A DNA stretch of 64,000 nucleotides from Spirochaetia bacterium. Lineage in GTDB: Bacteria > Spirochaetota > Spirochaetia > Sphaerochaetales > Sphaerochaetaceae. The first letter of the stretch is position 1. Each line of letters begins with the position of its first letter. Under the pieces are notes generated by a model that worked only from the letters and a program-made list of their open reading frames with translations, did no database searches and had not been told where the DNA came from. This document shows, one piece after another, positions 1,246 through 59,698 of this stretch. The DNA lies in the NCBI GenBank assembly GCA_009930325.1, contig RZYO01000002.1, forward strand, positions 1-64,000. Direction: 5' to 3'. The position numbers were made by a program, and so were the translations under genes.

Positions 1246-4200
1246 TTATAATATTTTTTTTATACCAGGTCCTGAAAGCGAAGAGGTTGCATCTCCATTT
1301 TCTTGTACTTTGATTTGAGATCTTATTCTATCATGAAGTAATGTTACATGAGATATTAAACCAATTACTTTCCCAGCTTTTGTTAAATTATCAATAGCTT
1401 CTAAGGCTTGTGTTAATGTCTCTTCATCAAGAGTCCCAAAACCTTCATCTAAGAATAGGGTTTCTATTGAAACTTTTTTATTTAATAAGTCGCTTAAACC
1501 TAAGGCTAGTGAAAAAGATATTATAAAAGATTCCCCTCCTGATAAATTACTTACAGGGCGCCTAATCGCTGCACTATATTTATCAATTACTCCTAATTCT
1601 AGGGAAGTTGCATTACCCTCATTTTGAATTCTATATAGTTCATAGCGAGGAAAAAGTTCAATTAGTTTTTGATTTGTATTATGTATTAGGTACTCTAGAG
1701 TAATTGCTTGAGCAATTTCTTTGAATTTTTTACCATCTGAACTTCCAATAGCTGAATTTAGAATTTCCCATTTATTAACAATGTTTTGTTGACTTGAAAT
1801 AAAAGCCTCTTTGTCTTTGATTTTACTTCTATTTAATTCATTAGCCTTTAATTCTTGATTTAGAATAGTTTTTTGTTTAATTGCTTCATCTCTATTGGTT
1901 TGAAGCTCAATCTGTTTCTCTTTAGCAGATTCTTCTGCAATTTTGACATTTCTTGATTTAAGTTCAGTTTTTTCTTTATCTATATCATTTAATAAAGTTT
2001 TATATTCGATTTCTTTATTTTCATATGCTTTAATATCATTTTGTAAAGCAAGTTTATCTTCATCACCTAAATTGTAGGATAGTGCAATTTCAATGGAAGC
2101 AATTTCATTTGATTTTAAAGCTGAATCTAGTTTATTGTTTAAGGTAGATATTTTTTCTTTTAGATCATTAATACTTTCTTTTTTGTGTTTTATATTTTCA
2201 TTCATTTTTATTAATGAATCATTTATAGGTGATAATTCTGCTTCATTACTATTTATTTGTTGGTTAATTTCTCTTATTACATTGTTTTGATTGTCTAATT
2301 CTTTATCACAATCTTTCTCTTCAAATAGTTTAACTCTAGAATCTTCAAGCTCTTTTATGTTATTTTCTAGAGATGTCTTATTTTCTTTAATACTATTTAT
2401 TAATGTTTCTAGTTCCTTTTTTGAATTAATATCTTGTTTAATTGTCTCTTCTAATTCAATAATTTCTTCATTTAATAATTTTACTGTTTTATTATTATCA
2501 TTATATTCATTAAATAAAGTGTTTAATTTTTTATATGTATTAGAAATGATAAAATCATCTAAAGAAATTCTTACTGTTTTTATTTCAGATTCTAAATCTT
2601 TAATTAAATTTTCATAATCCTTAACTAATATTTCATTATTATTCTTATTTGTTTTTGCTAAGTTTAAATTGGCTTGTTCTTGAATAAAAATAGAATTTTT
2701 TTCCTGAATTTCTTTATTTAATTCTTTAATCCTAGTTTGCCCTTTATTTAAAGAGTTGATCTCTACATTTAATGAACTAATCAGATTAGTTATTTCTTTT
2801 TTATAAGTATCTATTGGATAGATCTCTTTTATTAAATCATTTGTCAAAGTAGATTTAAGATGATCTTGTTGAATTAATAAAGTTGAGATTTCGGTAGTTA
2901 GATTAGAAATTTGAGTAAGTACTTTATCAGAGTCCTTTACAAGATTATCATGTACTTTTTGTGCCTTATCTAATTCTGAAGTATCCCCAGTGGTAATTGA
3001 TGGATGTTCAGTTGACCCACAAAGTGGACAAGGTTTTCCTTTTTCAAGTATATGTGCATAACTTTTTAATCCAACTATTTCTCTTTGTAAATCGATTATC
3101 TTTTGTTGTGATTTTAGTTTATCTCTATAATTTTCTTGTTCTTTTTCTAAGAGTGATTCTTTATTATTTTTTTCAATTAAGCTTTGTTCATTTTCATAGT
3201 ATTGTTTATAATTTATTAATGATGTTTTTAATTGTGAAATATAATTATTTTTCTTAGAAATTAAGTCAGTAATTTCTTCATATGATAATTCATAAGTTTC
3301 TAACTCATCCTTTAAAGAAGTTAATTCTTTATTAAGAACGTTGTATTTTTTTTCTTGTTTTGTATATTCTTCAACAAGTTGTGAAGTTCCCCCTTTTTCA
3401 TTCGATAGCTTTTCTTCAGTTTCAGTTTTTTTAGTTTTAAGATTAATATATTTTTCTAAAGCATCTAAAATTGACTCTTGTTTATTTTCATATTTTTTTA
3501 AATTATTTTGCTCTTTAATATATTTATTAGCGGTATCTAATTTTGATTGTTTAGTTGCTTTTTTTTGTTTGTTTTCTGTAATTAATTTATCAATGTTTGC
3601 GTATTGTTTTTGATTGTTTATAAGATTGTTGTTAATTATTTCTAAATTATATATTTCACTTTTAATATCACTATCTAAAATTCTAACTTTTTTAATTACT
3701 GTATTTAATTTTTCTAAATTATCTTCTTCCTTTTTTTTATTTATATAAAGTTGTTCTTTATTTTTTAATAATTCTTGTTGCTTTTTTTTGTTTTCAATCT
3801 CTTTTGAAATTAATTCTTTTTCTTCTTGGACATTTATTGTTTTTTCTTTTTCACAAGCAATTAGTTCTTTGTTAAATGATATAATGTTAACAACCTTATC
3901 ATAATTTTTTATTTTTGATACTTGTTGAATATGAATCTCTTTTTGAGATTCTAAATCTTCTTTTATTTTAGATAAAGCTTCTTCTTTTTGTTTCAAATCA
4001 TTTAATTTACTATAGTAATTTATAATAGATTCTAAGTTTTTTAATTCCTTGTTTATTGTATTTATATTATCTTGAAATTCTTGAATTTGCTTATTTCTGT
4101 ATTCTATATCTTCATCACTTAATAATTCTATATCTCCAATTTGTTGCTTCAGGTTTTCAAGTGTTTGTTTTTCATTTTTATGATGTTCATATACTTTTTT

Positions 4201-4758
4201 GCTTATTGCACTATATATTTGAGTACCTGTAATTTGTTCTAAAATAGAGGCTTTTTCCTCTTTTGAAGCTTTTAAAAATAAATCAAAGCTACCTTGAGCA
4301 AGCATGACAGTTTTGCTAAATTGGTTAAAATTTAAGCCTATTAATTTTTCAGTATCGTTAGCAATGGTAGAAGGACTATTATTTAGCAACTTATTTGTTG
4401 ATACTTCAGTTAATGTTGTTCTTTGTGTTTGTAGGTTTCCTTCTGCTAAATTCCTAGATTTATGTTGACTAAAGGTGGCAATATATTTCTTTCCTTTTAC
4501 TGAAAAAGTAACTTGAGAACTACACTCTCCACTGTGTTTATTCATTAATTCATTCGTAGTTCCAGTAATTTTTCCTTGTCTTGATGTTTCCCCATATAAA
4601 GCTAGTGTTATTGCATCAAATATGGATGATTTACCACTACCAGTTTTACCAGTAATTAAAAAAATATTTTCACGAGTTAATTCAGGATTATCAAAGTTAA
4701 TTTCCCAACTTCCTTTTATTGAATTTATATTTTCAAATTTTAAATTATGTATCTTCAT
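1246..4758 (-). CDS. sbcC: exonuclease SbcCD ATPase subunit SbcC
   Basis: A 1170-residue Rad50-type ATPase that works with SbcD to open and trim DNA hairpins and blocked double-strand ends. It has a Walker A loop (GKTGSGKSS, residues 37-45), a very long coiled coil broken in the middle by the zinc hook CPLCG at about residue 577, then the ABC signature LSGGES at about residue 1071 and Walker B TLFLDEGFGTLDEE near 1095. Length is typical for the family. The start lies two bases after the sbcD stop, with GAGGG as ribosome binding site inside the end of sbcD, so the two are translationally coupled. Several short open frames on the opposite strand only mirror the coiled coil. Confidence 0.97.
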   Translation of the reverse strand: MKIHNLKFENINSIKGSWEINFDNPELTRENIFLITGKTGSGKSSIFDAITLALYGETSRQGKITGTTNELMNKHSGECSSQVTFSVKGKKYIATFSQHKSRNLAEGNLQTQRTTLTEVSTNKLLNNSPSTIANDTEKLIGLNFNQFSKTVMLAQGSFDLFLKASKEEKASILEQITGTQIYSAISKKVYEHHKNEKQTLENLKQQIGDIELLSDEDIEYRNKQIQEFQDNINTINKELKNLESIINYYSKLNDLKQKEEALSKIKEDLESQKEIHIQQVSKIKNYDKVVNIISFNKELIACEKEKTINVQEEKELISKEIENKKKQQELLKNKEQLYINKKKEEDNLEKLNTVIKKVRILDSDIKSEIYNLEIINNNLINNQKQYANIDKLITENKQKKATKQSKLDTANKYIKEQNNLKKYENKQESILDALEKYINLKTKKTETEEKLSNEKGGTSQLVEEYTKQEKKYNVLNKELTSLKDELETYELSYEEITDLISKKNNYISQLKTSLINYKQYYENEQSLIEKNNKESLLEKEQENYRDKLKSQQKIIDLQREIVGLKSYAHILEKGKPCPLCGSTEHPSITTGDTSELDKAQKVHDNLVKDSDKVLTQISNLTTEISTLLIQQDHLKSTLTNDLIKEIYPIDTYKKEITNLISSLNVEINSLNKGQTRIKELNKEIQEKNSIFIQEQANLNLAKTNKNNNEILVKDYENLIKDLESEIKTVRISLDDFIISNTYKKLNTLFNEYNDNNKTVKLLNEEIIELEETIKQDINSKKELETLINSIKENKTSLENNIKELEDSRVKLFEEKDCDKELDNQNNVIREINQQINSNEAELSPINDSLIKMNENIKHKKESINDLKEKISTLNNKLDSALKSNEIASIEIALSYNLGDEDKLALQNDIKAYENKEIEYKTLLNDIDKEKTELKSRNVKIAEESAKEKQIELQTNRDEAIKQKTILNQELKANELNRSKIKDKEAFISSQQNIVNKWEILNSAIGSSDGKKFKEIAQAITLEYLIHNTNQKLIELFPRYELYRIQNEGNATSLELGVIDKYSAAIRRPVSNLSGGESFIISFSLALGLSDLLNKKVSIETLFLDEGFGTLDEETLTQALEAIDNLTKAGKVIGLISHVTLLHDRIRSQIKVQENGDATSSLSGPGIKKIL

Positions 4759-37757: not shown

Positions 37758-37761
37758 TCTA

Positions 37762-37800
37762 TTGACAAAAAATTATTGTAAATGTAGTATATAACTACAT
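37762..37800 (+). promoter_or_regulatory. promoter of rimP-nusA operon with overlapping dyad
   Basis: TTGACA (37762-37767), a 17-base spacer and TAGTAT (37785-37790). A perfect 7-bp inverted repeat, ATGTAGT (37782-37788) and ACTACAT (37794-37800), covers the -10 box and start point, as an operator would. Confidence 0.7.
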
Positions 37801-37819
37801 TATAAATATAGATTTTTTG

Positions 37820-37848
37820 GGAGACCGCAAATCGCAGGTCTCCTTTTT
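37820..37848 (+). terminator. intrinsic terminator in the leader of rimP (attenuator candidate)
   Basis: GGAGACC (37820-37826) pairs with GGTCTCC (37837-37843), extended by an inner GC/GC pair with one bulged A, then five T. It lies about 25 bases after the predicted start point of the rimP-nusA operon and before its first gene, so it would cut transcripts before the coding region unless read through. It also can stop any transcript running on from mutS. Confidence 0.82.
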
Positions 37849-37876
37849 ATTGGATTAGCGAAGCAAGGAATTAGGT

Positions 37877-38377
37877 GTGAAAAATAACATTATAAGAGAT
37901 CCTTTATTTGAGGAATATGCTCCATTGTTGGATGCTTTAAATATTGTTTTAGTTGATATTGAACTTAATGAAAGTCCATTTAGCGCTAGAATGTCTGCAA
38001 TTATTAAATTGAAAGATGGTGAAGTGGGTGTAAATGAATGTGCAAAAGTATATAATATTATTAAAGCAAGAATGGAAGTTAGATTAGCTCCTGAACAAGA
38101 TTTTGATTTAGAAGTATCTACTCCTGGGTTACAAAGAAAAATAAAAGATGCCTACGAATTTACTTTGTTTGTAGGTAAAAGAATTAGAGTATATGATATA
38201 ACAAAATCTGCTTGGTTTTCTGGTATAATAAAAGAAGTCAAGCAAAGTAGTGTATTATTAATAGATTGTATTGATCAAGATGAAAAAAAACTTGATGAAG
38301 AATTAGATATAGAATTTGAAAATATCTCCAAAGCTAAGTTGGAATATATTTGGGAGGATGGAAAAAATGCCAAGTGA
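37877..38377 (+). CDS. rimP: ribosome maturation factor RimP
   Basis: A 166-residue protein needed for 30S subunit maturation. The family's first alpha/beta domain and an SH3-like barrel are seen: LNIVLVDIELN, the segment VNECAKVYNIIKARME, FDLEVSTPGLQRKIKD and FVGKRIRVYD. Length is usual. The start codon is GTG with AAGGA before it; no ATG fits better. The last 11 bases overlap the start of nusA, as in the widespread rimP-nusA pair. It lies behind a promoter, an overlapping dyad and an intrinsic terminator. Confidence 0.93.
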   Translation: MKNNIIRDPLFEEYAPLLDALNIVLVDIELNESPFSARMSAIIKLKDGEVGVNECAKVYNIIKARMEVRLAPEQDFDLEVSTPGLQRKIKDAYEFTLFVGKRIRVYDITKSAWFSGIIKEVKQSSVLLIDCIDQDEKKLDEELDIEFENISKAKLEYIWEDGKNAK

Positions 38378-53441: not shown

Positions 53442-56165
53442 TTAAACAGCTACTTCAATTTTTAATACATTAAAGTCAAAAGGCGTACCATTTACAGTAA
53501 ATTTGATATGGTCTCCAACTTTTCTGTTTAATAAATTTGAACCTAGTGGAGCTAATCTATTGATTATATTGTTTGATGGATCAGCTTCCCAAGAACCCAT
53601 AATTTTGTAAGTAATTTCAGTTTTGGTGTTATTATCGAATAAAGTAACTCTTGTTCCATAAGCAACTTTCTCATTAGTAACAGTTGCAGGGTCGATTACA
53701 GTTGCTCTTTCGATTTCATCATTTAAAGTAATTAATTGAGAATTTAACATACGTTGTTTTTCTTTTGCGTATTTATATTCACTATTCTCTTTTAAATCAC
53801 CTAATTCTCTAGCTTCACCAATTTCTTTTGCAATTTCTGGTAAAAGAACATGTTGGAGATTATATAAATCAGCTTTTTTTGCTTCCATGGTTTCTTTTAA
53901 GCAGAATAGGCCGGTAGGAATCATATCTTCTTCAACATTAATATTAGCTTTAGAGTTAAAGTCAAAATCAGGATATTTTTTAGTTAATTGATGTTTTACT
54001 TCAATTTTTTTACCTAAATCAGCTTTTCCTAGAGGTAATCTATCAACAAGAGCATATGCTTTTTTGCCTTTAATTTCATCTCCCTCTTCAATGTACATAT
54101 AGATTGCTTTTTCATCAAAGAGTTTAGTCATTAATACTTTTACATTCTTTCTATTTTCTGTTACATTTTTTTTGTTTTCAATTAATTTAAGCATATAATC
54201 TAAAAGAGATAATGCAGTAAAAAGTAGTTGTTCTGAAGAGATACCATTTTTTTCCCAAGCTTTTAATGTATAGTTTTTATATAAATATAAGAACTCTTGA
54301 GATTTATCTTTATAATTTTCTACACATTGTTTAAATACTCTAGCAAAACTATCTGCCTTTTTGTTTGATCTGAAAGTATCTGGAATATATGAAGTTAAAT
54401 AATGTGGGAATAAATCCATAAGAGTTTTTTCCCAGAAAGGATCTACTTTAACCACATGTTCGATAAATAACTTCTTGAGCTCTGGGTCATCAATCTGTTT
54501 AAAGCAATCGACAACATTCTCAATTCTTTCATATATATCATTAAAAGGTAATCCTTCAGGTAATTTTACAAAGTTCATACTATAATTCATGTATAAGTCT
54601 TGTAATAGTAAATAACTGCTTACAATAGTGTCACTAACGTTATGTAAAGTAATACTTGTTCCATCACTATTAGTAATATTACTTGAGAAATAGGCAACCA
54701 TTTCTAAGAATGAATCACTTTCAACATCACCATTATTTAAGATAAAGTCTCTTAATACTTTAACTTTACTGTAGAATAGTTTCTTGCTCTTGAAGATATT
54801 TAATTGTTTTTCTTCAAAAGTAATAGGAGTACTTCTTAAAGTAAAAGTATCTTTTTCTTGAGCACTAACACCAAATAAAGGATTACTCATTAGTTCTTTT
54901 TTAGCAGCTAAAACCCAAGCATTTAATTCTCTAGTATTTAATAATGAAGGAGAAAGCTCATTTTTCATTTCTTTAATTGATGCTTTATCATTATTACTTG
55001 ACATTAAAATTCTTAAAGCCCAAGGAATATCGGTTTTAATTTTTTCAGCAAGTTTTTCATGATTTACAACACTTTTTAAAACCCAAATATGTGATTTTGG
55101 AAGTGCAATAAGACTCTTAAATGCCATATCTGTTGACATGTCGGCATTACCATTAGGGAAATCAATCTCAACAGTATTTTCATTTATATTTTTGATTCTA
55201 CCAATTTTAGTGGTAGATTTTTGGAAAATGAATGTACCTTTATCAAAAGCAATATTAGTTTCAAAATCTTCAATTGCTCTTATAACATCTTTAAAATATC
55301 TGTCATTTAATTTGCTGTGATGTAGGCATGTGCTTAATCTTCCATGCTCTTTATATTTAATCTTATAGCATTTTACTAAATTATTTCTAGCACCAATATC
55401 ATCATTAGAATATTCAAGAATCTTTTTATAAACAGTAATTTTGTTATCAATATCATTGTCATGATAAGTTACTAAAACATTCAATAGTGCTACAGCATAA
55501 GATTTTCCAACATGATTTGAAACTCTTTCACAAACACCGATTAAATACCCAAATTCTTCTGGAATTAAGGATATTAATACTGGAAAACTTTCTTTAATAT
55601 TTATTGGGTCATTTTTTGCTATTAATCTATTAATAAGTTTTTTATAATATAAGATACCTGCTTCTTTATCACTTGTTTTTGTGCTAGAAAGCTTATAATC
55701 AGCTAAATCTTTTAACAAAGCAGTTTCAGAATAATCAACTTTAATTAATCTTTCCCAAGTATCATACATTCTTTTTTCATCGTTTTCTTTTTTATAGCTT
55801 TCGCCAAGTAATCTTAAAGCAGGTTTGCTTTCATTTACTTGTAAAATCAAAGAACTTAAATAAAGAACTAAGTCTGATCTATCTACTTGTGCAAAGGATG
55901 AAATTAAGTCTAAAAATGCAATACTATCTTCTTGAGGTCTTGTTTTTAAAGTAACTACGCCTGAAATATATCTTGCAATTACACTATTTTGATTTTTTAC
56001 TTCAAAATGTTCATCACATAGTTGTTTTACTTCAATAATTTCATCTTCGGCAATTTTATCGATTTGTTTGTCTAAATCTGTAAAGTATTGAATTTCGCAA
56101 CTTTGCATAAAGGAAATGCTCCATTTCTCCTCATCTAACATAGTTTGTAATTTTTTCAAATTCAT
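53442..56165 (-). CDS. greA: transcription elongation factor GreA with giant amino-terminal extension
   Basis: A 907-residue protein; ordinary GreA has about 158. The last 160 residues are a GreA/GreB unit: coiled-coil tip region (AEIAKEIGEARELGDLKENSEYKYAKEKQRMLNSQL) and the carboxy FKBP-like fold with GTRVTLFDNNT and IINRLAPLGSNLLNRKVGD. The coil carries the acidic tip residues that make stalled RNA polymerase cut its transcript. The first 740 residues are helical, TPR-like repeats. Treponemes share this architecture. I use the ATG at 56165, because GGAGG stands eight bases before it; a GTG 17 codons upstream has no support. The leader holds several hairpins and a terminator. Confidence 0.95.
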   Translation of the reverse strand: MNLKKLQTMLDEEKWSISFMQSCEIQYFTDLDKQIDKIAEDEIIEVKQLCDEHFEVKNQNSVIARYISGVVTLKTRPQEDSIAFLDLISSFAQVDRSDLVLYLSSLILQVNESKPALRLLGESYKKENDEKRMYDTWERLIKVDYSETALLKDLADYKLSSTKTSDKEAGILYYKKLINRLIAKNDPINIKESFPVLISLIPEEFGYLIGVCERVSNHVGKSYAVALLNVLVTYHDNDIDNKITVYKKILEYSNDDIGARNNLVKCYKIKYKEHGRLSTCLHHSKLNDRYFKDVIRAIEDFETNIAFDKGTFIFQKSTTKIGRIKNINENTVEIDFPNGNADMSTDMAFKSLIALPKSHIWVLKSVVNHEKLAEKIKTDIPWALRILMSSNNDKASIKEMKNELSPSLLNTRELNAWVLAAKKELMSNPLFGVSAQEKDTFTLRSTPITFEEKQLNIFKSKKLFYSKVKVLRDFILNNGDVESDSFLEMVAYFSSNITNSDGTSITLHNVSDTIVSSYLLLQDLYMNYSMNFVKLPEGLPFNDIYERIENVVDCFKQIDDPELKKLFIEHVVKVDPFWEKTLMDLFPHYLTSYIPDTFRSNKKADSFARVFKQCVENYKDKSQEFLYLYKNYTLKAWEKNGISSEQLLFTALSLLDYMLKLIENKKNVTENRKNVKVLMTKLFDEKAIYMYIEEGDEIKGKKAYALVDRLPLGKADLGKKIEVKHQLTKKYPDFDFNSKANINVEEDMIPTGLFCLKETMEAKKADLYNLQHVLLPEIAKEIGEARELGDLKENSEYKYAKEKQRMLNSQLITLNDEIERATVIDPATVTNEKVAYGTRVTLFDNNTKTEITYKIMGSWEADPSNNIINRLAPLGSNLLNRKVGDHIKFTVNGTPFDFNVLKIEVAV

Positions 56166-56262
56166 TTTATTTTTCCTCCGCAGAAAATTGACTCTTTTTA
56201 ATATGTAGAGTCTCACAATTTATTATATAATTGTGAAAAAACCAAAATTTCGCAATTTTGTT

Positions 56263-56310
56263 TTAGTAAACAAAACCCGAGCAACAGCAATGGGCGATGC
56301 TCGGGGGCAT
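56263..56310 (-). other. possible 15-codon leader peptide frame with a Cys run
   Basis: Leftward from an ATG at 56310 the sequence reads Met-Pro-Pro-Ser-Ile-Ala-His-Cys-Cys-Cys-Ser-Gly-Phe-Val-Tyr and a TAA at 56263. The frame coincides with the terminator hairpin. A weak GAG lies before it. It may be only the hairpin read as codons. Confidence 0.2.
56268..56305 (-). terminator. GC-rich intrinsic terminator in the greA leader
   Basis: Leftward, CCCGAGCA (56305-56298 as its complement) pairs with TGCTCGGG across a 14-base loop, followed by TTTTGTTT (56275-56268). It stands out as GC-rich in AT-rich DNA. It lies between a promoter at 56368 and greA, and also after the beta-helix gene. Confidence 0.82.
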
Positions 56311-56340
56311 TTTTAACTCACAATTTAATTTAATTATAGT

Positions 56341-56368
56341 ATAATATTAACAAATTAGCAATAGTCAA
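56341..56368 (-). promoter_or_regulatory. promoter upstream of the greA leader
   Basis: Leftward TTGACT (56368-56363), 16-base spacer, TATTAT (56346-56341); an alternative -10 is TATACT (56343-56338). A transcript from here reaches the terminator within about 70 bases. Confidence 0.6.
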
Positions 56369-56424: not shown

Positions 56425-58905
56425 TTAATTCATTTTACTCTCAAAATGCCCAATATCTACAATATTCTCATTAATTCTTTGATTATTAAAACAATCAAAA
56501 GGAATAACTTCACTAGTATTGTTATCATGATCAATATCAAAAGTATCTATTGGTAAATAGCTGTTGTTTCCGCTATTAATTAGTGGGCCATTTTCACTAC
56601 AACTATTATTAATTATAGTAAATTGAGATAAATCACCACTGGCATTTTCGTTATAATATATTTTTGAAGAATCTATAATTGTATTGTTAAATATATTGTT
56701 TGTGTTAATTGGCAAATTATATACAAATATTATTTTTTCTTGTTTTCCATTAAATAAATTATTATTATAGAATGTTGAGTTAGTTGAGAGTAGAGTAGAG
56801 ATACCATCTAATGTTATGGCTGATCCAAAAGAGTTAGAAGTATTATTATTAAATAAGCAGTTATTTAATTCAATATTACTATTAATTGCATAAATTGCTC
56901 CCCCTCCATATATGTAAGCAGTATCAACATATAGATAGGCGGATGAATGAGTACTTGAATTTGAATCGAAAATACAGTTAATAAATTTTGATGTTGAATT
57001 AGCTAAATAAACAGCTCCTCCAGATTTGTTTGACACGTTATTACTAAATTTACAATTAATAAAAACTGGGGAACTGTATTGTGAATAAATTGCTCCACCA
57101 GAAGCTGTTGAGACATGATTTCTATCTTCAATCGAATATGTTCCAGTAGCTTTACCATCTTTTAACACAACTCTTTCTAAAATAGCTGTATTATTTAATG
57201 CTGTTCCACTTGGGTGATAAAATATGTGATAACTAGTATTATTTAGATCAGAAAATGGACCTAATATGGTTTGATTTGAATCTGTAATATCAAAAGTATC
57301 TGGGATTTGATCTTCATTTCCATCAAAACCACCAATTACTCTAACATTATTTCTAAGTGAAAAATGATAAATACTTCCATTTGGAGCACTAGATGTATTT
57401 GGATGTGACTTTGGATAATAAGTACCTTTTTGAACCCATACTTCTTTTATATTATTTTGATGTGCAAATTCTATTGCTCTTTGTAATTCTGTTGCAGTTT
57501 CCCAAGTACCTCCAATATTTGTAGAATCTCCATTTTGAGTGACACATAGATGAGTTAAATCTGTGATTACTTCAATACCTTTTTCTTCATAATAACTAAT
57601 ATTTCCAATAGTATCTGTATAAGTAAATCTTATATCTACTGAAGGAGAATCAATTGAAATATATTCAGTTTTTTCTGATGGAATATTATCGGTGGTATAT
57701 TCGTTAAATAATGAATAAGAAGTTCCAGAATTTATTGAATATTCAATTTTAACATTATTTAAATCAATATCTAAAGGTTTTTTCCAATTAACTTCTAATG
57801 TATAAGGTTTGCTTATAATTGATGTAAAATTATGTAGTGGTGGTTTTTTATCTATTTTAAAAGATAATGTAAAGTTGTTATCTTTAAAGGTTTTAATAAT
57901 TGTGGAATAAATAGGGGAAACTTCATATTTTATTTTTATTGAAGAAATTGAGTATTCTTCTCCATCTTTAACTTCAATAAGATGAATACCATTATCATTA
58001 TCAGAAAAGGTTTGCCAAGTTGATGAATCATTTAATAAAATTTTAAATTGTCCCTGAGAATTATATTCATCTGGTTTTGATGCTTGAATTTTAATATCTG
58101 AATTATAAGTTTGATCAACATGTACTTCATTATCAAAGGAATCTTTTATTGACACATTTTTTAATTCTTCTTTTTGGGATAAATTTAAGTAAAATATTTC
58201 TCCATAATTTTTATCACTATAATGGGCTTTAATTTGAATGTCGCCATATTCATTATTCAAAATAGTATAATAAAACTCATCATCAAAAGGACTATCAGCT
58301 GACCAATCGTTTTCATTTAATTTATAGCTATAATAACTAAACGTGTTTTCTTCTAAATTATTACCTTTAATTATAATTTTATCAGCTTTTACTTCTTCAT
58401 TGTTGGATACTTGAATGAATTGATTTATATCATCTTGTGATTCTATATATATTGAGAAAGAGGGGACTTCAGTATTAGAGTTTGGGGACTCAGAATCTTT
58501 TCTATAGTAGATACTTTGTGACAAACTTAATTCTTCATTCGTAATTTTGTTTTTATCGTTATCATTTATAATCGTTGGTATAATCCAAAAATAATAATCT
58601 TGATCTTCATTTATTGTGATTGAATAAGAATTATTAAATGCTGCAAATTGAATATTGTTAATTTGAGAAATGGATGTAGGTTTAACATTCGTATATGTAT
58701 ATCCAACAGCATAGCTACCATCATTGCTATTACCATCCCAGTAAATATTAACAACATTGTTTATATCTTCAAAATATTGCAAATTTGAAGGATTTTCTGC
58801 ACTAATATTCCCATTTTGTGGGAAATTTGAGTCATCTGGAGGCATTGGACAACCAATTAATAAAATAAATATTGATGAAAGTAGTATGAATTTGTTATTA
58901 ATCAT
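56425..58905 (-). CDS. lipoprotein with right-handed beta-helix repeats
   Basis: An 826-residue predicted surface lipoprotein. The signal peptide ends in a lipobox with Cys19 (LLIGC). Residues 30-450 are beta-rich with fibronectin-III-like turns. From about residue 455 a parallel beta-helix of the kind found in polymorphic surface proteins begins: a lead-in GTWETATELQRAIEFA and VWVQKGTYYP, then repeated coils such as ASGGAIYSQYSSPVFINCKFSNN, KSGGAVYLANS and GGAIYAINSNIELNNCLFNNN. Such proteins mediate surface contact or bind polysaccharide. It is Asn/Ser rich. The start has no Shine-Dalgarno sequence; a perfect-looking promoter ends five bases before the ATG. Confidence 0.85.
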   Translation of the reverse strand: MINNKFILLSSIFILLIGCPMPPDDSNFPQNGNISAENPSNLQYFEDINNVVNIYWDGNSNDGSYAVGYTYTNVKPTSISQINNIQFAAFNNSYSITINEDQDYYFWIIPTIINDNDKNKITNEELSLSQSIYYRKDSESPNSNTEVPSFSIYIESQDDINQFIQVSNNEEVKADKIIIKGNNLEENTFSYYSYKLNENDWSADSPFDDEFYYTILNNEYGDIQIKAHYSDKNYGEIFYLNLSQKEELKNVSIKDSFDNEVHVDQTYNSDIKIQASKPDEYNSQGQFKILLNDSSTWQTFSDNDNGIHLIEVKDGEEYSISSIKIKYEVSPIYSTIIKTFKDNNFTLSFKIDKKPPLHNFTSIISKPYTLEVNWKKPLDIDLNNVKIEYSINSGTSYSLFNEYTTDNIPSEKTEYISIDSPSVDIRFTYTDTIGNISYYEEKGIEVITDLTHLCVTQNGDSTNIGGTWETATELQRAIEFAHQNNIKEVWVQKGTYYPKSHPNTSSAPNGSIYHFSLRNNVRVIGGFDGNEDQIPDTFDITDSNQTILGPFSDLNNTSYHIFYHPSGTALNNTAILERVVLKDGKATGTYSIEDRNHVSTASGGAIYSQYSSPVFINCKFSNNVSNKSGGAVYLANSTSKFINCIFDSNSSTHSSAYLYVDTAYIYGGGAIYAINSNIELNNCLFNNNTSNSFGSAITLDGISTLLSTNSTFYNNNLFNGKQEKIIFVYNLPINTNNIFNNTIIDSSKIYYNENASGDLSQFTIINNSCSENGPLINSGNNSYLPIDTFDIDHDNNTSEVIPFDCFNNQRINENIVDIGHFESKMN

Positions 58906-59035: not shown

Positions 59036-59698
59036 ATGAATAATTTAATCATTTCACCAAGTATTTTGTCTGCTGATTTTTCAAATATAGTAGCAGATGT
59101 AAATTCAATTAAAAATGCAGATGCTAAGTGGGTACACTTAGATGTTATGGACGGTTCTTTTGTTCCAAATATTACTTTCGGACCTAAGTTTATTAAAGAT
59201 TTAAGAGCACATTCTGATTTATATTTCGATACTCATCTAATGATAGATAATCCAGAAAAATATATTAATGAATTTGCTGATGCTGGATCTGATGGAATTT
59301 GTATTCATTTTGAAGCAACAAAGCATGTTCATAGAGCATTACAAATGATAAAAGCAAAAAAGAAAGATGTTGGTATATCAATAAATCCTGCTACTAGTGT
59401 AGATTCATTATTACCTATTTTATCTGATGTAGATCAAGTTTTAATCATGAGTGTAAATCCTGGGTTTGGAGGACAAACTTTTATTGATTATAGTTTAGAA
59501 AAAATAAAACAATTATCTCAATTGAAAAAAAAGTTTGGATATACATATAAAATTAATTGTGATGGTGGAGTAAGTACTCATAATATAAGAACTTTAAGAG
59601 AAGCAGGAATTGATGTTGTAGTAACCGGTTCAGCATTCTTTGGTGCAGAAGATAGAAATCTATTCATTAAAGAAATGTATGAAAAAGGTAACATTTAA
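59036..59698 (+). CDS. rpe: ribulose-phosphate 3-epimerase
   Basis: A 220-residue TIM-barrel enzyme of the pentose phosphate pathway that interconverts ribulose 5-phosphate and xylulose 5-phosphate. Family motifs: ISPSILSADFSNI, WVHLDVMDGSFVPNITFGP, the metal-binding DTHLMIDNPEKY, VLIMSVNPGFGGQTF and INCDGGVSTHNI, all in order. No Shine-Dalgarno sequence; the promoter ends six bases before the ATG. Divergent from the beta-helix lipoprotein gene. recA follows after 67 bases. Confidence 0.97.
   Translation: MNNLIISPSILSADFSNIVADVNSIKNADAKWVHLDVMDGSFVPNITFGPKFIKDLRAHSDLYFDTHLMIDNPEKYINEFADAGSDGICIHFEATKHVHRALQMIKAKKKDVGISINPATSVDSLLPILSDVDQVLIMSVNPGFGGQTFIDYSLEKIKQLSQLKKKFGYTYKINCDGGVSTHNIRTLREAGIDVVVTGSAFFGAEDRNLFIKEMYEKGNI

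Follow-up and report, generated by a model that had tools for sequence, protein, structure and literature searches.

In Escherichia coli, the leader of greA, the gene of the factor GreA that rescues RNA polymerase, carries a terminator known as GraL (Potrykus 2010; Dylewski 2019), whose hairpin occupies positions +19 to +48 of a transcript with its AUG at +150, and at which about two thirds of transcripts terminate (PMC6829880). Termination at GraL is imprecise, yielding RNAs of 37-59 nt, and the element serves autoregulation and also functions in trans (PMC6829880). GreA increases GraL termination in vivo, and the autoregulation requires cleavage-competent GreA. It should be added that regulation is lost when the two arms of the hairpin are exchanged, while termination continues, so that the arm sequence and not pairing alone is needed, and that the sequence downstream of the hairpin is unnecessary for regulation (PMC6829880). 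The feedback itself is unexplained, having been seen in cells and not in a defined system (PMC6829880).

In a comparative-genomic study, Naville and Gautheret (2010, PMC2965389) furthermore inferred premature terminators in greA leaders of Proteobacteria, bacilli and Clostridia; spirochaetes are unmentioned in the text of that paper. In Bacillus subtilis, imperfections of the hairpin or of the tract make intrinsic terminators dependent on NusA/NusG (Mandell 2021, PMC8060035). No report of a greA leader terminator in spirochaetes was found in the literature searched.

We conducted the analysis of a stretch of 64,000 nucleotides (positions 1 to 64,000 of contig RZYO01000002.1, assembly GCA_009930325.1, Spirochaetia bacterium), hereafter the window, and compared its greA leader with those of related genomes, whose family we take, following established taxonomy, to be Sphaerochaetaceae. 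The sequences point to an addition to the greA leader terminators known in other phyla, namely a putative terminator at a spirochaete greA, with a GraL-like layout and a different sequence.

The greA leader of the window and its resemblance to GraL

The greA gene of the window (53442-56165, minus strand, as are all features of its leader) encodes a protein of 907 aa and starts with an ATG at 56165, preceded by the Shine-Dalgarno sequence GGAGG (56175-56179). Scanning for consensus promoters revealed two overlapping matches before the hairpin described below, TTGACT-16-TATTAT (56368-56341) and TTGCTA-17-TATAAT (56361-56333). The former had been named as the promoter in an initial annotation made from the sequence; it is indeed promoter-like, but relatives keep the latter instead, and only the pattern TTGC[CT]A-17-TATAWT recurs among them. 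We therefore place the greA promoter at 56333-56361, with a -35 box TTGCTA (56361-56356), a 17-bp spacer and a -10 box TATAAT (56338-56333), from which transcription is predicted to start at approximately 56326, placing the AUG at about +162.

Between this promoter and greA lies the GC-rich hairpin that the initial annotation had noticed, CCCGAGCA-14 nt-TGCTCGGG (56276-56305, about +22 to +51), delineated by folding, by a covariance model and by its conservation in the family, with the interrupted U-tract TTTTGTTT (56268-56275) behind it. Folded alone, its 30 nt reach -15.3 kcal/mol (z -4.0), and 0 of 200 shuffled sequences folded equally well. The leader thus shows the stable GC-rich hairpin and the U-tract directly 3' of it that characterise an intrinsic terminator, the tract being interrupted; a simple terminator scan overlooked it because the loop exceeds the 8-base limit of the scan. 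As predicted from the sequence, RNA terminated here would measure 52-60 nt.

The likeness to GraL concerns the general plan. In both leaders the terminator stands between the greA promoter and the gene (+19 to +48 in E. coli, about +22 to +51 here), the AUG follows at a similar distance (+150 and about +162) and the expected RNA is short, of approximately 50-60 nt in the window; the upstream gene is divergent, being dacB in E. coli and rpe in most relatives of the window genome, and the cleavage loop of GreA is conserved. The proposal of a GraL-like arrangement, in which a leader with its own promoter has a terminator at roughly +20 to +50, an AUG some 160 nt into the transcript and, in relatives, a divergent upstream gene, is supported by a hairpin that nearly the whole family keeps at greA. 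The differences are equally plain: the E. coli hairpin, GCTGACCTGGG..CCCGGGTCGGT, is unrelated in sequence, and a search of the MG1655 greA region with the covariance model R1 gave no match at E values up to 10; the U-tract is continuous there and interrupted here; against the two overlapping promoters there, the window has two overlapping promoter-like matches, of which one recurs in relatives; and the conserved RNA before the hairpin is short or absent here. Autoregulation and a function in trans, described for GraL, could be transferred to the spirochaete leader by analogy at most. The leader resembles GraL in layout, a likeness that does not establish homology.

The partner gene is a further difference, since it encodes a fusion of TPR repeats and GreA. 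The GreA domains occupy residues 757-904, with the catalytic loop G-D-L-x-E-N conserved, and follow a TPR-rich N-terminal part of the PRK14720 type. The score against NCBIfam PRK14720 was 675, just below the cut-off of 714, and the protein is related to the fusion family PRK06330. In the AlphaFold model (pLDDT 86, pTM 0.56), helices dominate the N-terminal 750 residues, which resemble TPR repeats, and a small beta domain of five strands lies at about 312-355. RNA binding by this N-terminal part was considered and set aside: the predicted model matches TPR proteins and GreA itself and contains no clear RNA-binding domain.

Distribution of the hairpin and its association with greA

The greA gene was located in 129 of 139 family genomes, and 120 leaders were compared. 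A hairpin that matches CCGAGCAG-variable loop-CTGCCCGG exactly or closely, with a T-rich tract (TTTTNTTTT) behind it, precedes greA in about 112 of the 120 leaders as judged by pattern search and inspection by eye, a procedure that admitted a few false matches and overlooked a few true hairpins. Homologues were present in 17 of the 19 Sphaerochaetaceae genera examined, at about one copy per genome. Of the 120 leaders, 102 contain exact CCGAGC within 250 nt upstream of greA, where dinucleotide shuffles predict 5.5. The hairpin is degenerate yet present in five genomes (G003, G010, G021, G044 and G049), the region upstream of greA is rearranged in G112, and among the 120 leaders inspected the hairpin is absent from G009 (g7) and from G016 and G154 (g14); having been lost in g7 and g14, it is dispensable.

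The covariance model R1 and the alignment A1 were built from 65 distinct greA leaders. R1 matched the window at 56310-56264 (minus strand) and 111 of the 139 family genomes; in almost all of these there was a single match, and it lay at greA, on which ground a multi-gene regulon is rejected. Among 297 genomes spread over the class, strong matches were confined to Sphaerochaetaceae, the only family by which the order was represented; outside it, nine genomes gave weak matches (E 1e-4 to 1e-3), none of them at greA, which was far off or on another contig in eight and was not found in the ninth. In several other families a co-oriented gene directly precedes greA and leaves no space for a leader. 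The leader exceeded the gathering threshold of no family in Rfam. By this comparison, a conserved terminator-like hairpin before greA is real, and the observation is stronger than the initial annotation stated.

The promoter recurs together with the hairpin. In 108 family leaders the best promoter before the hairpin had a -35 box TTGC[CT]A or similar and, in 97 of them, a 17-bp spacer, counts that represent best matches and not a blind discovery, as the search was confined to the stretch 5' of the hairpin and biased to TTG and 17 bp. The recurrence of TTGC[CT]A is the independent part of this result, since the scoring gave it no preference. The -10 boxes of these leaders were mostly TATATT- or TATAAT-like, and the distance from the -10 box to the hairpin had a median of 25 nt, falling to 10-13 nt in many g17 members. 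From the start of the hairpin to the ATG of greA, most leaders measure 42-105 nt; in the shorter ones this distance hardly permits a greA promoter 3' of the hairpin.

These distances bear on the question of which gene the terminator belongs to. In the window, a lipoprotein-like gene (56425-58905, minus strand), outside the greA element, lies between greA and rpe (59036-59698, plus strand), the gene that in the family usually stands next to greA in divergent orientation. The initial annotation had allowed that the terminator might simply serve this gene, which is co-oriented with greA, ends at 56425 and has no other terminator in sight before the hairpin; co-oriented open frames also stand upstream in some relatives (several g12 genomes and G002). 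The hairpin would then be an ordinary 3' terminator, and greA transcription would depend on read-through or on a promoter 3' of it. We reject this explanation, to which next to no probability can be assigned: in 85 of 120 leaders greA is preceded by rpe on the opposite strand, the promoter separates the hairpin from the upstream gene, and many genera have little space for another one 3' of it. The closest relative and sister species, Pleomorphochaeta sp. JB015 (G001, JAQQAS010000014.1, leader L032), has the hairpin without the lipoprotein gene, and its greA is faced by a 220-aa frame (3763-4425, minus strand) of rpe-like length and place. The remaining leaders have varied upstream genes on either strand, greA alone being constant. 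Because rpe runs the opposite way upstream in so many genomes, the terminator is to be assigned to greA. The lipoprotein gene was found between rpe and greA in the window genome only, among the 120 compared, and is best read as a local insertion.

The lipoprotein-like gene has a perfect promoter match of its own, TTGACA-18-TATAAT, at 58940-58911, and a weak match to Chlam_PMP-type repeats.

Comparison of the stem, the U-tract and the downstream repeats

The initial annotation had suggested that the leader be checked for covariation in relatives. Across the 65 distinct leaders of A1, the upper stem covaries, with double changes in 44 cells where shuffles give 13.9, and 84% of its cells are paired, against 22-42% with slid partners. 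The lower stem, CCGAGC/GCCCGG, is near-invariant: its six positions are almost fixed, with C-G at base pair 7-35 in 64 of the 65 distinct leaders and at base pair 8-34 in all 65. The A of this stem faces C in 60 of 65 rows and U in five. Early patterns demanded GAG, and the invariance of the A stems partly from that selection; a broader count that dropped this demand, over about 95 leaders, gave A.C in about 81, A-U in about 11 (among them the genus of the window) and a few A.G. The conserved A is replaced by G in two g12 genomes only, G049 (L078) with G-C and G044 (L089) with G.U, which offer natural tests of what the A.C mismatch contributes.

The tract behind the stem was compared with 41 control terminators, hairpins just 3' of gene ends taken from 20 genome pieces. 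TTVTTT occurred in the tract of 65 of 65 distinct leaders and in 6 of 41 controls, and six uninterrupted T from the start of the tract in 0 of 65 leaders and in 8 of 41 controls, although the leaders share ancestry and their counts are therefore not independent. Because the position and identity of the interrupting base vary between leaders, it is the interruption itself that appears to be kept, and this suggests that it is conserved as such. The imperfect hairpin, the distal interruption of the U-tract (65/65) and TTNTTT within it recall the NusA/NusG-dependent terminators of B. subtilis, from whose NusG-dependent members the leader differs in a stem base of C-G/G-C pairs in place of weak A-U/G-U ones. 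A NusG pause motif was also considered and discarded, as a pause at the expected stop would, by the register taken from PMC8060035, need the TTNTTT about 5 nt further upstream. Promoter, hairpin, tract, their order, the link to greA and selection on both the sequence and the pairing of the stem are thus shown by comparison of the leaders.

Hairpins at transcript starts may also act otherwise, 5' stem-loop stabilisers being known mRNA elements. The hairpin could be mainly such a stabiliser, or a site for a regulatory protein, affecting stability or translation of greA mRNA, with termination incidental. Many g17 hairpins begin about 3-8 nt from the predicted start, as known stabilisers do, the 5' arm is conserved beyond the demands of pairing, and g16, g18 and g21 keep the hairpin despite a poor T-tract. 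Nearly all leaders, however, have a T-rich tract directly 3' of the stem, for which a stabiliser would have no need, and we regard this explanation as quite unlikely.

In the g16 and g18 leaders (L095, L102, L065, L069, L070), CTGAG[CT]..GCTCGGG is retained with a tract such as CTGTTTGCTATTTG; a poor tract is also found in g21. Termination in these three groups is therefore possibly weak or absent, and in g16 and g18 the hairpin may do more than terminate transcription.

Three inverted repeats follow the hairpin in the window. The first, CAAAAT..ATTTTG (56243-56260), is AT-rich, weak and without sign of function. The second, TCACAATT (56236-56229) with AATTGTGA (56220-56213), was the basis of the mutually exclusive structures of the initial annotation, and the third, GACTC (56212-56208) with GAGTC (56194-56190), lies 5' of the ribosome-binding site. 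Since TCACAATT in the window is able to pair with AAATTGTGAG or with AATTGTGA, and since greA and rnk leaders of other phyla were drawn with antiterminators (PMC2965389), one may ask whether the leader is a switching attenuator or riboswitch with the downstream repeats as its antiterminator. Yet the nearest relative keeps little of these repeats: JB015 lacks an intact TCACAATT/AATTGTGA repeat and retains GACTC/GAGTC with one G.U, and in G002 the latter is missing. Across 92-106 leaders examined with RNAduplex, pairing of the 5' arm with downstream sequence, of the 3' arm with upstream sequence and of the 5' segment with downstream sequence showed no excess over shuffles (mean z about -0.15), so that, in distinction to the clear antiterminators drawn by Naville and Gautheret, none was detectable here. 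Moreover, many g17 leaders have almost no RNA 5' of the hairpin. A switch of this kind is very improbable; the role proposed for the downstream repeats is unsupported, and, as judged from the leaders compared, the mutually exclusive structures are private to the window sequence.

Proposed partial termination and its candidate effectors

The initial annotation had pointed to nusA as a second elongation-factor gene apparently under leader termination in the window, and this parallel holds. The rimP-nusA-infB operon, identified by its RimP, NusA and IF-2 domains, has a leader (37760-37880, plus strand) with a TTGACA promoter, about 20 nt, and a strong promoter-proximal hairpin, GGGAGACC..GGTCTCC, followed by the long U-tract TTTTTATT (37819-37852) directly before rimP. 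In the leaders compared (L212-L228), relatives in Sphaerochaetaceae have GGGATCG..CGGTCCC-TTTTTT or similar at the same position, and other spirochaete families have comparable hairpins with other stem sequences. Both leaders thus consist of a promoter, about 20 nt and a terminator hairpin before an elongation-factor gene, and both are conserved in relatives; the rimP leader differs from that of greA in its stem, in a mostly longer U-tract and in its occurrence in other families of the class.

On the evidence above, the 5' leader of greA is probably a constitutive and deliberately imperfect transcription attenuator, with read-through into greA set by partial termination. RNA polymerase would initiate at about 56326 and, after approximately 50 nt, reach the intrinsic terminator formed by the hairpin and the interrupted U-tract; a fraction of polymerases would stop there, yielding a transcript of about 50-60 nt, and the remainder would continue into greA. 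We infer both that polymerases terminate here and that only some of them do. A lower stem that hardly varies and usually contains the A.C mismatch would, together with the always interrupted tract, keep termination partial and responsive to elongation factors. The likeliest responder would be GreA itself, a rise in GreA increasing termination and lowering greA mRNA as in E. coli; this analogy would make GreA, perhaps together with NusA or NusG, the most likely effector. The conservation of the arms and the lack of conservation of the downstream repeats fit GraL, because GraL needs the sequence of its arms and not that downstream, and the retained cleavage loop of GreA would fit the same logic.

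The released RNA could alternatively be the selected product, a small RNA acting in trans and conserved for its targets, with read-through into greA secondary. E. coli GraL does function in trans (PMC6829880), but A1 contains no conserved sequence 5' of the hairpin, and the 3-8 nt available there in many genomes leave no shared seed outside the stem; such a role is extremely unlikely.

A further and rather unlikely reading would make the hairpin a sequence-specific receptor. The TPR-fused GreA, or NusA/NusG, would recognise the CCGAGC strand and the A.C-mismatched helix at the exit of the polymerase and thereby set greA read-through; the leader would then be an autoregulatory RNA specific to spirochaetes and without common descent with GraL.

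In a phylum distant from that of E. coli, the greA leader of Sphaerochaetaceae would represent a second greA leader terminator, alike in geometry and apparently unrelated, and its more than 100 natural variants allow a comparative test of which features are relevant. The sequence of the stem base, the internal mismatch and the interrupted tract are kept here; an antiterminator and downstream structure are not. If the receptor reading were true, termination in greA leaders would have arisen repeatedly, each time with this geometry.
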